This document shows, piece by piece, positions 56,353 through 63,688 of a stretch of DNA of 64,000 bases (its first letter is position 1; the number at the start of each line of letters is the position of its first letter). The stretch is taken from assembly GCA_018644665.1 (NCBI GenBank), contig JABGQA010000115.1, forward strand, positions 1 to 64,000, in the 5' to 3' direction. The position numbers and the translations under genes were made by a program. Below the pieces are notes generated by a model. It was given only the letters and a program-made list of their open reading frames with translations, ran no database searches and was not told where the DNA came from. This DNA comes from Candidatus Poribacteria bacterium (lineage in GTDB: Bacteria; Poribacteria; WGA-4E; GCA-2687025).

Positions 56353-57057
56353 ATGACTGCGCTCGAAGACTTCCTGCGGACCCGGGCTGGCGGAGCCGTC
56401 CTCGACATTGCCTGTGGTGGTGGCGCCTTCGCGCGTCGGCTGGTTGACGGCCTCGCCTCATACCGTGGGGTCACCGGCCTCGACATCGTTGATAAACGGG
56501 AGGAGTTCCTCGGAAACATCGAGGGCGACGACGTCTCGTTCGTGGCGTCCGCGATCGGCGACTATCTGCGCGGCGATCATGGCTTCGACACCATCTCGAT
56601 ATCCAATGCCCTCCACCACCTAGAGGGTGTCGGTGACATCCTCCGCGATCTGCGTCGCATAGCGAATCCCAACGGTGTCGTCATCATCAGCGAGATGTAC
56701 GCCGACGACCTCACTCCGCCACAGCAGACCCAACGCGACCTGCACGCGATGATCGCGCGGCTGCACGTGGGCATGGGCGAATACCACCGAGCGACGTACA
56801 CGCGCGACGAGATCAACGGCTTCCTCGCGGGCGCAGGTTTGGGTGTCCTGCACGCGTTCGACGCGCCACACGACGATGCCCCGGTGGAGAAGGGAACCGA
56901 CGGGTTCGCGGGTAGGGCCGGGTCCGTCATGGCCGACGCGTATCCCGACGGCGCGCCGCCCGATGTCTCCGCGGAGTACGAACGGCTCAAGGCGCGCGCG
57001 ATCGCGATTGGAGTAGCGCGACCCCCGCAGTTGACGCTGGTCTGCGCCTACAGGTAG
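56353..57057 (+). CDS. Class I SAM-dependent methyltransferase
   Basis: VLDIACGGGAFARRLVDG; GLDIVDKRE; DTISISNALHHL. Confidence 0.9.
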   Translation: MTALEDFLRTRAGGAVLDIACGGGAFARRLVDGLASYRGVTGLDIVDKREEFLGNIEGDDVSFVASAIGDYLRGDHGFDTISISNALHHLEGVGDILRDLRRIANPNGVVIISEMYADDLTPPQQTQRDLHAMIARLHVGMGEYHRATYTRDEINGFLAGAGLGVLHAFDAPHDDAPVEKGTDGFAGRAGSVMADAYPDGAPPDVSAEYERLKARAIAIGVARPPQLTLVCAYR

Positions 57058-57419: not shown

Positions 57420-57560
57420 GACCGGCGCTCGAGCGGTAGGCGCCCACAGCGCCCACAGCAATGCTGGCCCGTCGGGAGCGCGCGGAGGGCCAGCTTGTGT
57501 ACAGCGGCAGCACGGCAATAGCATGCCGCGGCGCCCAACGCCCGCTCGAGGAGGAGGACC

Positions 57561-58892
57561 ATGTCACAACTGAACGCCGCAGCGGTCGAGCCCTGGAGCC
57601 CGCACCCTAAGGCCGCGCCCGTCCTGGAACGGCAGGGCGACGCGTGCGTCACCGCGGCGAATGGCACGCGGACGTGCGTCGGAGGCTGGAACGTCCGGTA
57701 CGAGGACACGCAGCCGGGCGCGACCTACCTTGTCGCCTGCGACGCCCGCACAACGGGTACGCACGAGCCGGCCGACTCTCTGCGGTGCTTCGTCGAGTGG
57801 GCAGGCCAAGACGGCCGCCACTGGGAGTACCTGATGCCGGAGTTCCGCGACGGTGGAGCGATAGCCTTCTCGCGCGTCGTCACCGCTCCCGAGGGCTCGA
57901 CGGGGTTCAGCGTCCGCATGCTGTTCCGATGGTCGACGACCGGCACAGTGACGTGGCAGCCCCCGCGCGTCGAGACCGCGACGCGTCCCGAGCCGAAGCC
58001 GCCGGTGAAGGTGGCCCTCGTCACGGGCAAGGTCCGGGGCCGGCGTGGGCCGTTCCGCGAGGCGCAGGACAACATCGACTACTACTTGCCGCTATGCGAG
58101 GCGGCCGCGGCCGAGCAGCCGGACCTCATCGTCCTGCCCGAGATCGCGTTGCACTGGCACATCGACGACAGCCCCATCGATCTGGGGGTCACGACGGACT
58201 CCCCGGAAGCTGCTCCCTTCGCCGACCTTGCCAAGCGACACGGCCTGCATCTCCTTCTCGGAATGTACGAACGTGACGGCGACGCGGTCTTCAACAGCGC
58301 AGTGCTCTACGGCCCGGACGGCGACGTCGAAGGCGTCTACCGCAAGGTGCATCTCGCCGTCGGGGGTGAGGACGAGAACGGCCTCCTGGCCGGCGACGAC
58401 TTCCCGGTGTTCGACACGGACATCGGCCGCATCGGCTGCAACATCTGCATGGACTCGTCAGCGGCCGAGTCGTCGCGAATGGTCGGGCTCAACGGCGCCG
58501 ACTTCCTCCTCCTGCCCATCATGGGCGATCACCGGGCCGACCGTTGGACCGTTGGGTCGCCGCACTTCAGCGAGGAGCGGTGGAAGGCGATCATGCGCAC
58601 GCACGCGATGGACACGCAGCTTTGCATGGTCGTCGCGCGCAACGAGACACACGGAAGCTGCGTGGTCGACCGGAAGGGCGATGTCCTCGCCTGGAACGAG
58701 GGCGACCGCGACTTCGTGATCGCCACGGTCGAGATTGACGACGGCTACCGCACGTGGAACGGCGCGTGCTTCCGCGACGTGAACTGGATGCAGCGACGCC
58801 CGCACCTGTACCCCGAGTCCACGCGACCCGGGAACGTTGGCGGCGTCACCCAAGCGACCACCCTCCCAGGACGACGGGATTTGAGCAGATGA
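57561..58892 (+). CDS. Carbon-nitrogen hydrolase (nitrilase superfamily) with N-terminal extension
   Basis: LIVLPEIALHW (Glu), GVYRKVHLA (Lys), IGCNICMDSSAAES (Cys); GAGGAGGA before the ATG. Confidence 0.92.
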   Translation: MSQLNAAAVEPWSPHPKAAPVLERQGDACVTAANGTRTCVGGWNVRYEDTQPGATYLVACDARTTGTHEPADSLRCFVEWAGQDGRHWEYLMPEFRDGGAIAFSRVVTAPEGSTGFSVRMLFRWSTTGTVTWQPPRVETATRPEPKPPVKVALVTGKVRGRRGPFREAQDNIDYYLPLCEAAAAEQPDLIVLPEIALHWHIDDSPIDLGVTTDSPEAAPFADLAKRHGLHLLLGMYERDGDAVFNSAVLYGPDGDVEGVYRKVHLAVGGEDENGLLAGDDFPVFDTDIGRIGCNICMDSSAAESSRMVGLNGADFLLLPIMGDHRADRWTVGSPHFSEERWKAIMRTHAMDTQLCMVVARNETHGSCVVDRKGDVLAWNEGDRDFVIATVEIDDGYRTWNGACFRDVNWMQRRPHLYPESTRPGNVGGVTQATTLPGRRDLSR

Positions 58893-59740
58893 GCGGCACA
58901 GTCCTTCTCGGCTACGACGTTGAGTCGGCATCGGACAGCACGGCGGGCTTCCTCGACGGAGCCGCCGAACTCCACACGCGGTTCGACGTGCCGTGGTCCA
59001 TCTACCTCGTCGGTACGACAGTCGAGGCGCGCGTGGACGACATCCTCCGCCACGTGGACGACCCGCTGCTGACGATCGGTCAGCACACGTACAGCCACAT
59101 GCTCCTCAAGTCCATCTACATGGACCCGCGCGACGGCAAGGAGGTGCACGGCGGCGCGCAGACGTATTTCATGCCGGGCGGGGCGTTGGGAGAACTTGAG
59201 GTCGAGATTGCGAAGACGCAGCAGGTCATCCGCGATCTGCTCGGTGTCGAGTGCGAGGGCCTTACGGGGCCGTGGGGCTACTACCGTGGATTGGCGGATC
59301 GCGAGGACATCCTCCGCGTGCTCCACGAGAACGGCATCCGTTGGGCGCGCACGAACGCGCGCGACTTCCGCGACTGCCAGCCCGTCCCGTTCACTCAACA
59401 GCCGTACTTCTACGAGCAGCAGGGCTACCCGGACATCCTGGAACTGGGCATCCAGGGCTATCAGGACGACTTCTACTGGGACCGATTCGACGACCGTCGG
59501 CATGGCGACACGTACCAGGACTACCTGTTCGCGACGGTGGAAGAGGTCGCGGCGAACGACTGGGTGTGGAACCTATGTAGTCACGACCACGGCACGTTCA
59601 CCGCGGAGATGTTCCACGCGACGAAGGGCAAGTGGTTGGGCGACTTCATCGAGCGCGCGAAGGACGTCGGCGTGCGCTTCGCGTCGCCGAAGCAGGTCTA
59701 CGACGAGATGGTGGCCGCACGCGAGGCCGCGGCCGAATGA
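58889..59740 (+). CDS. Polysaccharide deacetylase family protein
   Basis: GYDVESASD, IGQHTYSHMLLKSIY (HxxxH), GPWGYYRGL; ATGA overlap with the upstream gene. Confidence 0.9.
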   Translation: MSGTVLLGYDVESASDSTAGFLDGAAELHTRFDVPWSIYLVGTTVEARVDDILRHVDDPLLTIGQHTYSHMLLKSIYMDPRDGKEVHGGAQTYFMPGGALGELEVEIAKTQQVIRDLLGVECEGLTGPWGYYRGLADREDILRVLHENGIRWARTNARDFRDCQPVPFTQQPYFYEQQGYPDILELGIQGYQDDFYWDRFDDRRHGDTYQDYLFATVEEVAANDWVWNLCSHDHGTFTAEMFHATKGKWLGDFIERAKDVGVRFASPKQVYDEMVAAREAAAE

Positions 59741-60483
59741 CCGAACTCGCGGCACAGGTCTACGAGCGCGGATACTGCGTGATCGAGGCGGCGTATTCCG
59801 CGCAGGAATGCGCCGAAATCGAGGCGATTCTCGTCGACGCGTGGAGGCGGGACGAACGGGACACCATGGGAGGCGTGTTCGGCAGCGTCTTCCACCCCCT
59901 CCTGAAATACGCGCCCGACATGGCGCAGTTCTACGACCGCCCGGACATCGTCTCCGTCATTGCCGAAGTCCTCGAAGACGAAGTGTGTCTGGCGCACAGC
60001 GGCGCGCTTCTCGCCGACGAGACCCGGCAGTTCTGCGGATGGCACGTCCACCTGAACGGCGACCGCTACAACGAGTGGAGCCCAAAGCCCGACGACTACG
60101 GGAGCCAGGTTGAGCGCGTGCTTGGGAACGTCTACGTGCACGGGTCGAACGAGACAACGGGGGAACTGCTCGTGCATCCGCGCGCCGTCACGGACCCGTG
60201 GGAAGCCCCGCGCCAGGACCGAGGGGTGGAATGGGACGGGCAGGGGGTTCTTACGTGCCCGCCCGGATCCGTCGTGATCTTCGACACGGCGCTCTGGCAC
60301 GCCGCTCGGGCCCCGTCGCGAGCATGCCGTCGGTTCCTGTGGGGCGCCCACTACAGCCGCAAGGGCGACCCGCGACCGCACCGCGAGGACAACCTGCACG
60401 ACTCGCCGGAGTTACAGGCTCACCGCGCGGAGTACGCGACGTTCGCGGCGCTCACCGAGGAGCCGCCCGCGAAGTTCCGGTGA
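59737..60483 (+). CDS. PhyH-like dioxygenase family protein with atypical HxH motif
   Basis: GYCVIEAAYSAQECAEIEAIL; FCGWHVHLNGDRY; ALWHAARAPSRACRRF; ATGA overlap with the upstream gene. Confidence 0.85.
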   Translation: MTELAAQVYERGYCVIEAAYSAQECAEIEAILVDAWRRDERDTMGGVFGSVFHPLLKYAPDMAQFYDRPDIVSVIAEVLEDEVCLAHSGALLADETRQFCGWHVHLNGDRYNEWSPKPDDYGSQVERVLGNVYVHGSNETTGELLVHPRAVTDPWEAPRQDRGVEWDGQGVLTCPPGSVVIFDTALWHAARAPSRACRRFLWGAHYSRKGDPRPHREDNLHDSPELQAHRAEYATFAALTEEPPAKFR

Positions 60484-60541: not shown

Positions 60542-62653
60542 TCATTGCAGATGCAACACCCCTTCGGCGCCGAGGGCGGAGTATGCCGCACGGCACATGG
60601 CGTATTCCGCCTCGATCGCCTTGGTGTCGGCAGGCGTCTTCATGTGGTCGAGCGTCTCCGCTAGCCGAACGGGACGCGGCGCGATGCCGGCCACGAGGTC
60701 GGACAGGTCGTACCGCCCGATGACCCCGGGGACCATCACGTTCACGTGACAGTCGTACAGCTCGTTCAGCGCCAACGACTTGTAGGAGATGAGCGAGCGG
60801 CGCGCGGTGACCGCCGACACACGAACGTCGAGCAGCGCGGCGTGCAGGGCCATCGCCGCGCCGAGCCCCACCCCAAGCAGCGAGACGTCGGACGGATCGA
60901 CATCGTCCCGCGAGACGGCGTAGTCCACGGCGCGCACGATGTCTCGCGCCCGCAGCCCGAGCAGCGGCAGACCGATCATGAAGCTCGTGTACGTCAGGTC
61001 TGTCTCGACGCCGTAGCGCGCGTAGTAGTCCCCACGATGGTCGTGCCGTGACTTAGTCTCGCCCATGCCACGTGGGTCGATGGCGATGACTACGGCGCCG
61101 TTGCGCGCGAGACGACGCACGCTGTCCATGTCGGCCGACTTGCCGTCCTCATGCACATAGACGACGGCCGGTAAGCGGCCCTCGTGGCCGTCGGCTCGGA
61201 CAACCAACGTCGGCACGTGGATGCCCGCCTCCGACGTGAAGACGACCTTCTCGACGCGTAACCCGTCCTCGGAGCGCGTCTCCAACGTCTGCGCGTGAAG
61301 CGGCCCTTCCGGCCGTTCCCACCCGAGGAGTCCCTGCACGGAGGCGAGCGTCGCGTCGCGGTGCCCGTCCACCGCCCCGGCGTCCCCAAGGCTCGCAGCC
61401 GGTGAGATGCGCGCCGTCGCGGCTTCTCGGTAGATGTCGAACACCGTCGTGCCGCCGAGCGACGTCAGTACCTGCCCTGTCTCCGTGCACTGCAGGGCTG
61501 CGTCCTCTTCCACGCCGATCTCGGGTTCTGTGTAGTCCGGCGTCGGATGCTGTAGGTGCAGGTTCATCCACCGGATCATCGCTTCGCGGAGTCCGAGCGT
61601 GAAGCCGTGTTGCTCGTCCACCTCTACGATCTCTACGGCATCCGGCGCGTCCACGGCGGCGTATGCGCGCTCCAACTCCTTGTGCGCTTCCCGGGCTCCC
61701 TCGATGGGGAAGAAATCACGAATCGCCGCGCCGATCTGCACGGGCCGCGGGGCCATGACGGACAGCAGGTCCGAGTGGTCGATTCCACGGGCGATCTGCG
61801 GGATGAAGTTCTGCTCGGGGTCCGCGGTGACGCGCGAGAGGAACCGGCGGCGTAGCGTGGTGATGTAGCAGTTGGGCGACCCCACCGCGACGCGCGGATC
61901 GACCGCGCACAGATACGTCGTCACCGTGCCGCCGCCGGAGTTGCCCATCACGCCGAACCGCGTGGCGTCCACGTCCTCGCGGGACTCCAGGTAGTCCAGG
62001 CACCGCATAGCGTCCCCTATGCGAATCTGCGCCAGGTTGAGGCCGATGAGATACCCCTGGTTCCCCTGGTGGCAATGCTCGCCGGTCCCGATTCCGATGA
62101 CGGAGCCGCCGGACTCATCGAGTATCTGTAGCCGCTCGCCCTGCGAGATCGGATCGAACGCAAGGACGACGTATCCCTGCTTCGCCGCCGAGATGTACGC
62201 GCGCTGATACCCCTCGTACGCCTTGCCGTTGTGCGAGTGACCGCAGGGGCTCAGCAACGCGGGATATGGGCCGGCTCCCCGAGTGGGGACGTAGACGTTC
62301 GCGGTGACGTAGAACTCCGGCCGGCTCTCGAAGATCACGTTCTCGACGCGGTAGCCGTCACGCTCCAGAACGCCGACGACCCGAGGGTTGAGAGGCGTTC
62401 GCTCGGGCAAGCCGCCCATCATGTCGATGAGCGTCTCTCGCACGTATTCCTGGCGTTGGCGCCACGCGTCCGCGCTGTCGAGGGCGTCGAGGGTCGTCGC
62501 GCGCTCGGCGTACTGTTCCTCGGTTACGCGCATCAGGGAGAGGAAGAGCTGTTCGGGCTCGTAGTCCTCGATCAGCGGTACGACCGCGCATTGGTCGACC
62601 GGATCATCTGCGGGCGTCGCGCCGAAGAGCGTCATGCACATGTACCACACCAC
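60542..62653 (-). CDS. Tandem alpha/beta hydrolase (acetyl xylan esterase/dipeptidyl-peptidase-like)
   Basis: GGGAGG about 7 nt before a GTG at 62653 (ATG alternative at 62641); lobe 1 RFGVMGNSGGGT and VDEQHGF; lobe 2 VAIDPRGMGETKSRH and DVSLLGVGLGAAM. Confidence 0.9.
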   Translation of the reverse strand: MVWYMCMTLFGATPADDPVDQCAVVPLIEDYEPEQLFLSLMRVTEEQYAERATTLDALDSADAWRQRQEYVRETLIDMMGGLPERTPLNPRVVGVLERDGYRVENVIFESRPEFYVTANVYVPTRGAGPYPALLSPCGHSHNGKAYEGYQRAYISAAKQGYVVLAFDPISQGERLQILDESGGSVIGIGTGEHCHQGNQGYLIGLNLAQIRIGDAMRCLDYLESREDVDATRFGVMGNSGGGTVTTYLCAVDPRVAVGSPNCYITTLRRRFLSRVTADPEQNFIPQIARGIDHSDLLSVMAPRPVQIGAAIRDFFPIEGAREAHKELERAYAAVDAPDAVEIVEVDEQHGFTLGLREAMIRWMNLHLQHPTPDYTEPEIGVEEDAALQCTETGQVLTSLGGTTVFDIYREAATARISPAASLGDAGAVDGHRDATLASVQGLLGWERPEGPLHAQTLETRSEDGLRVEKVVFTSEAGIHVPTLVVRADGHEGRLPAVVYVHEDGKSADMDSVRRLARNGAVVIAIDPRGMGETKSRHDHRGDYYARYGVETDLTYTSFMIGLPLLGLRARDIVRAVDYAVSRDDVDPSDVSLLGVGLGAAMALHAALLDVRVSAVTARRSLISYKSLALNELYDCHVNVMVPGVIGRYDLSDLVAGIAPRPVRLAETLDHMKTPADTKAIEAEYAMCRAAYSALGAEGVLHLQ

Positions 62654-62902: not shown

Positions 62903-63688
62903 CTATCCAGGCCCTGCCATGTCGATCAGCCCTGCGATCGTGGCGAACCACGCGCCTCGGCCCTTGGCATGACGGATGACGTCCTTGACGACCTGTATCT
63001 CGCCGGCGTTGATGACAAGCATCCACGGATGGATGACGAGGCTTGCCATGCGTCCGTGCTTCTCGGCCCAATCGACGTTCGCGAGCCACTTCTCCCGCGC
63101 GCCCTCGGGACTGAACGCCTCTTCGTGGGCGTCGGCCCAGTCCGGCCGCCTGTCCGTGTAGTCGGAGGCGCCGCGCGCGTCCGCTCCCGGCACGACAACG
63201 CGCGCATCGCCGCCCTCGACATCCCGCCACTGCGGGGACGGAGAGCCGGCCGCGCGGAACCGCGACTCCACGAACGTGATGTCTAGTTCAACGGCGGCCC
63301 GTAGCGTGTTCTCATCCGCCGATCCATGGTGCGGGCACGCGAGCCCGTCCACCTCGACGCCGCAGGCGCCGTGGATCGAGTCACGCATGCGTCTAAGTTC
63401 GTGGCGTTGGTCGGCGAGAGATCGGCCCGCGAACGCCTCCCTGTGGAACATCCCGTGGCCGTACACCTCGTGTCCCGCGTCGACGATGTCCGCGATGAGG
63501 TTCGGGAACATCTCCGCGGTGATGCCAAGGACGGCGAACGTCAGGTGGACGTCCATCTCCGCGAGCATGTCCAGTAGATTCGTGACGGCAACGCGCGTCA
63601 GCCGATAGTCGCCGATGTACTTCTGCGCTTCCACGTGCTCCACATCGACGCGGACCCGAAACGCGAACGGGCGCCCATGCCAACTCAT
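62903..63688 (-). CDS. Polysaccharide deacetylase family protein
   Basis: FRVRVDVEHVEAQKY; AGHEVYGHGMFHREAF; GLACPHHGSADENTLRA. Confidence 0.92.
   Translation of the reverse strand: MSWHGRPFAFRVRVDVEHVEAQKYIGDYRLTRVAVTNLLDMLAEMDVHLTFAVLGITAEMFPNLIADIVDAGHEVYGHGMFHREAFAGRSLADQRHELRRMRDSIHGACGVEVDGLACPHHGSADENTLRAAVELDITFVESRFRAAGSPSPQWRDVEGGDARVVVPGADARGASDYTDRRPDWADAHEEAFSPEGAREKWLANVDWAEKHGRMASLVIHPWMLVINAGEIQVVKDVIRHAKGRGAWFATIAGLIDMAGPG

Follow-up and report, generated by a model that had tools for sequence, protein, structure and literature searches.

A three-gene locus linked in one genus of Candidatus Poribacteria, and an H-x-H subfamily of PhyH-fold proteins

No domain family is more abundant in the genomes of Poribacteria than PhyH, whose functions there are mostly uncharacterised (Kamke et al., 2014; PMC3909097). 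Members of the fold that act as 2-His-1-carboxylate Fe(II)/2OG dioxygenases carry a His-X-Asp/Glu ligand motif, and in EctD the site is made up of His-146, Asp-148, His-248 and Arg-259 (PMC2871039). A second family of interest here is that of the NodB-fold hydrolases, and the group formed by 3RXZ, HP0310 (HpPgdA), ArnD and PuuE includes intracellular hydrolases of small amides. Within this group PuuE has been reported not to be metal-dependent (PMC10967932), and HP0310, which keeps all its metal ligands, is inactive on allantoin (PMC3084791). The third family is the nitrilase superfamily, in which N-carbamoylputrescine amidase and N-carbamoyl-D-amino-acid amidohydrolase have a CN_hydrolase domain with a Glu-Lys-Cys triad. 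We describe a locus in which one member of each of these three families is encoded by overlapping genes; a literature search found no paper naming all three families together, in agreement with a sequence-only reading of the locus that knew of no described pathway with this trio.

The locus lies in a draft genome (7.5 Mb) of Candidatus Poribacteria, within a stretch of 64,000 nucleotides that was analysed as a whole and that we call the window. The three genes, here A, B and C, and both ATGA junctions are present in the sequence as that reading had placed them (Table 1). Its family calls of carbon-nitrogen hydrolase, polysaccharide deacetylase and PhyH also hold, as the Pfam cut-offs are passed clearly by A (CN_hydrolase, 113.2 bits against a cut-off of 23.2) and barely by B (Polysacc_deac_1, PF01522, 26.4 against 23.1) and C (PhyH, PF05721, 26.0 against 22). 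The ATGA overlaps are an ordinary signal and alone unremarkable: exact 4-base overlaps are found in 5 of the 30 same-strand neighbour pairs called in the window, two of the five being the trio's own. The strong Shine-Dalgarno-like stretch directly upstream of A, GGAGGAGG, has no counterpart of similar strength upstream of B or C, as would be expected if their translation were coupled to that of A. The claim that the three proteins are made together thus agrees with the overlaps, the single strong ribosome-binding site and the junctions kept in a sister species, but a sigma-70-like promoter or terminator consensus was looked for and none was found, and we infer co-production from the gene layout. 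Trio and window have the same GC content (0.67), so that composition gives no hint of the genes having been imported recently. The upstream methyltransferase is unlikely to be an operon member, since an opposite-strand gene separates it from A in the sister species; that gene (L044 2784-3749) encodes 321 aa and does not lie between the two in the window.

Table 1. Positions of the trio, its junctions and flanking features in the window
Feature	Position	Strand	Description
Methyltransferase gene	56353..57057		upstream of A
Shine-Dalgarno-like stretch	57545..57558	+	GGAGGAGG, strong, directly upstream of A
Gene A	57561..58892	+	443 aa; ~150-aa N-terminal domain and nitrilase-superfamily (carbon-nitrogen hydrolase) domain
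A/B overlap	58889..58892	+	ATGA; present also in sister species G007
Gene B	58889..59740	+	283 aa; NodB-fold (polysaccharide deacetylase-like) amide hydrolase
B/C overlap	59737..59740	+	ATGA; also at a contig end in sister species G007
Gene C	59737..60483	+	248 aa; PhyH-fold protein
AXE1-type gene	60542..62641	-	699 aa; converges on C
Second polysaccharide deacetylase gene	62903..63688	-	2.4 kb downstream of the trio
Longer frame	63685 onward	-	leaves the window; 362 aa in L058

The C model (pLDDT 81.8) is a double-stranded beta-helix that matches 2OG oxygenases in Foldseek with an E-value of 5e-12. C resembles EctD and proline hydroxylase H11 in this fold, in a W-H-x-x motif that falls in register and in an Arg placed 11 residues past the distal His (H248 and R259 in EctD), but its motif reads H103-x-H105...H188...R199 where the canonical one is HxD...H...R. 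Two alignments give this register, one of the C profile to EctD and H11 in PDB and one of profile against profile between C and ten canonical PhyH paralogues from the genome of the window (98% probability). By alignment H103 corresponds to the first iron-binding His, H105 to the Asp ligand (D148 in EctD), H188 to the distal His and R199 to the 2OG-type Arg. The distal His and the 2OG-binding Arg are thus present, whereas the His-X-Asp/Glu motif is not. All four residues are invariant in 14 of 14 sequences of the C subfamily, drawn from Poribacteria, Verrucomicrobia, Gemmatimonadetes, Latescibacterota and Planctomycetota, so that His stands in place of the EctD Asp ligand in every member examined; four further His (H53, H87, H205 and H215) are invariant in the same 14 sequences. 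The loop at 107-113, beside the predicted metal site, is poorly modelled. On the aligned sequences we regard C as a PhyH-fold protein that lacks a defining feature of 2-His-1-carboxylate oxygenases, with H105 as a putative metal ligand. Its earlier designation as a non-haem-iron oxygenase is not supported, given the replacement of the carboxylate ligand throughout the subfamily, and the H-x-H site may mean that C is not a 2OG oxygenase.

C belongs with the poribacterial PhyH expansion by phylum and by domain family, and the genome of the window has 128 PhyH (PF05721) matches. It departs from the rest of that expansion in its motif, since nearly all others examined in this genome read H-x-D: among the best-scoring PhyH stretches this holds for 62 of the 71 distinct rows, and one row besides C has H-x-H. 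The protein behind that row (G000:C53:11924-12487, L144) falls outside the subfamily of C. A literature search found no paper linking PhyH or 2OG oxygenases to a three-histidine H-x-H site, which is not proof of absence, and we know of no description of a three-histidine active-site class that keeps the 2OG Arg in a PhyH fold.

By alignment B retains the residues predicted to serve catalysis and metal binding in an N-deacylase. These residues (D10-x-E12, H66-x3-H70 and H232) are invariant among its aligned relatives and are also kept in four of five further planctomycetal relatives. The closest structures to its AlphaFold model (pLDDT 85.5; best Foldseek E 9e-10) are 3RXZ, HP0310, ArnD (8T0J) and PuuE allantoinase (3CL6), to all of which B is only ~13-15% identical. 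B shares with this group the fold, the D-x-E and H-x3-H motifs and the late His, and with HP0310/HpPgdA also the absence of a signal peptide; its own departures are a motif 3 that reads T-G-P-W-G-Y-Y and an insertion of ~20 residues after H70. The likeness to ArnD, a membrane-associated deformylase of the lipid-linked Ara4FN intermediate, is one of modelled fold only. An assignment of B as PuuE is disfavoured by the presence of the metal-ligand residues, and one as a literal secreted polysaccharide deacetylase by the absence of a hydrophobic N-terminus. As such an N-terminus is absent from A and C as well, the three proteins are probably located in the cytoplasm, with small molecules as substrates.

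The Glu-Lys-Cys triad of A (E194-K262-C296) is intact and invariant across 7 aligned sequences. Among the best sequence relatives of A are N-carbamoylputrescine amidase and N-carbamoyl-D-amino-acid amidohydrolase, and its top PDB matches include 3IVZ, 6MG6, 5H8I and 1ERZ. A agrees with these carbamoyl-removing enzymes in domain and triad, but differs from them in having the extra N-terminal domain, which had no credible relative among PDB sequences, and in missing the cut-off of the N-carbamoylputrescine amidase equivalog TIGR03381 (80.7 bits against 410.25). Naming A as any known amidase was rejected, as it scores far under every curated equivalog cut-off tried. Paralogues of A with the same domain layout, ~30% identical, are found in this genome and in related Poribacteria.

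The trio itself is surrounded by genes for a ROK kinase, a sulfatase, an AXE1-like esterase and a second deacetylase. The AXE1-type product looks like two fused alpha/beta hydrolases; it is kept in the sister species, and a ~33% identical relative lies near C in another poribacterial genome (G024; L050 6681-8711). The second deacetylase gene overlaps the longer frame beside it by 4 bases. In other genomes the neighbours of B differ from one to the next: DegT aminotransferase genes lie next to it in G023, G085 and G432, with genes for AP_endonuc_2 and a sugar-acid dehydratase further downstream in G023, and in one planctomycete it lies beside a GH10 glycosidase. A more distant B-like deacetylase in G011 likewise adjoins a DegT aminotransferase. 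The verrucomicrobial C adjoins enolase-type sugar-acid dehydratases, and A of G024 has AP_endonuc_2, zinc alcohol dehydrogenase, DUF5069, GH43 and PhyH genes within ~7 kb. The shared theme of these contexts is carbohydrate metabolism, mostly catabolic. A DegT aminotransferase gene followed directly by a B-like NodB gene recurs in more than one phylum (L013 104-2316, L083 252-2278 and L084 8821-10428, the NodB gene of the last looking degraded), and this two-gene pair may be a better module for study than the trio.

The DegT, GH10 and dehydratase genes beside B, together with the dehydratases beside C, suggest that an N-acylated, sugar-like compound is broken down in the cytoplasm. We find a genus-specific three-gene operon serving such catabolism to be the most economical account of the locus, a preference that we hold tentatively and that stops short of calling it probable. 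The substrate class is suggested by the neighbours of B and C elsewhere, and the most likely candidate would be a derivative of an amino sugar or a sugar acid that carries an N-acyl group (acetyl, formyl or carbamoyl). Metal-dependent hydrolysis by B would take off this group, the Glu-Lys-Cys triad of A would serve to hydrolyse another C-N bond (amide or carbamoyl), and C, if it is an active metalloenzyme, would perform or assist an oxidation at its atypical three-histidine metal site; the order of these steps and their place in one shared pathway are likewise conjectural. The set of N-acyl stripping and oxidation proposed in the sequence-only reading is plausible, but its oxidation step is unproven; of the two targets that it offered, a natural product or an amino sugar, the neighbourhoods elsewhere favor the sugar, as catabolism, and modification of a natural product has no positive evidence. 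Support for the operon account comes from the overlaps, the one strong ribosome-binding site and the junctions kept in the sister species, from the catalytic residues of A and B, the likeness of the B model to a group with intracellular small-amide hydrolases, the lack of hydrophobic N-termini and the sugar-gene contexts, and from the co-occurrence of the genes described below. It is weakened by the linkage in one genus only, the abundance of PhyH genes, the variable neighbours of B and the H-x-H site of C.

A serious rival is that three separately circulating genes were packed together by chance in one genus, sharing transcription but no single pathway. We consider this quite possible, if on balance doubtful, and the distribution of the genes speaks on both sides. 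In the sister species, the only same-genus genome compared, C is an 89% match, and the same-strand double overlap is kept, which counts against chance packing; on the other hand, synteny with this species spans the whole neighbourhood and is not confined to the trio. In this species B falls on two contigs, and at the end of one of them it runs into unrelated sequence, a break that may be an assembly chimera or an insertion. At that contig end (G007:C117; L044 1-185) B breaks at about residue 139, and the sequence that follows has no match in the other loci compared. Close A (>50%) and close B (>60%) have one and the same presence pattern across Poribacteria (5 of 85 genomes, 3 of 22 genera), which also counts against chance packing, and close C (>50%) is found in four of these five genomes. 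The co-occurrence involves two lineages only, and shared ecology may explain it. In the second of them, a poribacterial family (G023-G025), the orthologues of A, B and C are 51-65% identical and unlinked; in G024, for example, A and C lie in the interior of contigs of 50 kb and 17 kb, respectively, neither of them near another trio gene.

In other genomes each gene follows a distribution of its own, as chance packing would have it. A scan for C in 84,980 species, one genome per species, returned 18 loci, the exact peptide patterns used being such that divergent relatives can be missed, and at the loci other than that of the sister species A or B is absent within the flank examined (up to 10 kb). 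The C tree groups the genus of the window with a verrucomicrobial sequence (97/94) and not with the other Poribacteria of G023-G025, which indicates horizontal transfer of C. The closest C from outside the phylum (61%) is that of the verrucomicrobial genome G085, which also has B (62%), on a different contig, and this co-residence supports the operon account over chance packing. No close A was found in six other-phylum genomes with C relatives, G085 included, at least one of these assemblies being small (2.1 Mb) and possibly incomplete. B was matched in 2 of 388 Verrucomicrobia and 5 of 392 Planctomycetota genomes, both evenly drawn, and in 0 of 16 Latescibacterota, and the planctomycetal B genes have no A or C nearby. 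A PhyH gene beside an operon is in itself unremarkable, as the 128 matches in this genome would make it fairly often expected, and 4-base overlaps are common. The scan and the unlinked orthologues lead us to reject the trio as a recurring module: its linkage is limited to one genus, and much of what the sequence-only reading had said would refute it, a trio not conserved elsewhere, is what the neighbourhood comparison returned. The locus is as observed, but it does not represent a conserved unit of a pathway.

Two other readings assign the three genes to a single pathway of another kind. In the first, a cyclic ureide or imide would be oxidised by C, its small ring opened by a PuuE-like B, and the carbamoyl group removed by A. 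A ring-opener and a decarbamoylase are a classical enzyme pair, PuuE is among the best structural matches to the B model, and the relatives of A include carbamoyl-removing enzymes. We nevertheless find this reading improbable, since B keeps all metal ligands and PuuE is reported not to be metal-dependent (PMC10967932), HP0310 keeps them as B does and is inactive on allantoin (PMC3084791), the neighbours of B elsewhere are mostly sugar genes and not ureide genes, and A is far under the equivalog cut-offs. Least probable is an operon that would make or tailor a natural product or a surface amino sugar, with ArnD-like deformylation or deacetylation, amide trimming and oxidation: the fold of B recalls ArnD, DegT aminotransferases of the ArnB/PseC kind are frequent neighbours of its relatives, and a planctomycetal relative (L166) has genes for a glycosyltransferase and a nucleotidyltransferase within a few kb, but the annotated neighbours of the trio include neither of these, and the sulfatase, ROK kinase, esterase and second deacetylase near it look catabolic.

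The preferred reading, a catabolic operon of one genus, leaves the trio by itself a narrow and probably catabolic operon in an uncultured phylum. What carries over to other systems is the H-x-H PhyH subfamily, in which every member examined, from five phyla, has His for Asp at the normally carboxylate ligand and keeps the distal His along with an Arg of the 2OG type. It is an unlikely conjecture that this subfamily has a genuine three-His metal site with a 2OG-binding Arg, has spread horizontally across Poribacteria, Verrucomicrobia, Gemmatimonadetes, Latescibacterota and Planctomycetota, and acts here on a single substrate together with an N-deacylase and an amidase. Cupin thiol dioxygenases use a three-histidine site. 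If C binds iron, it would test whether the PhyH fold can use such a site as well; if it binds none, a widely kept branch of PhyH would have left oxygenase chemistry.
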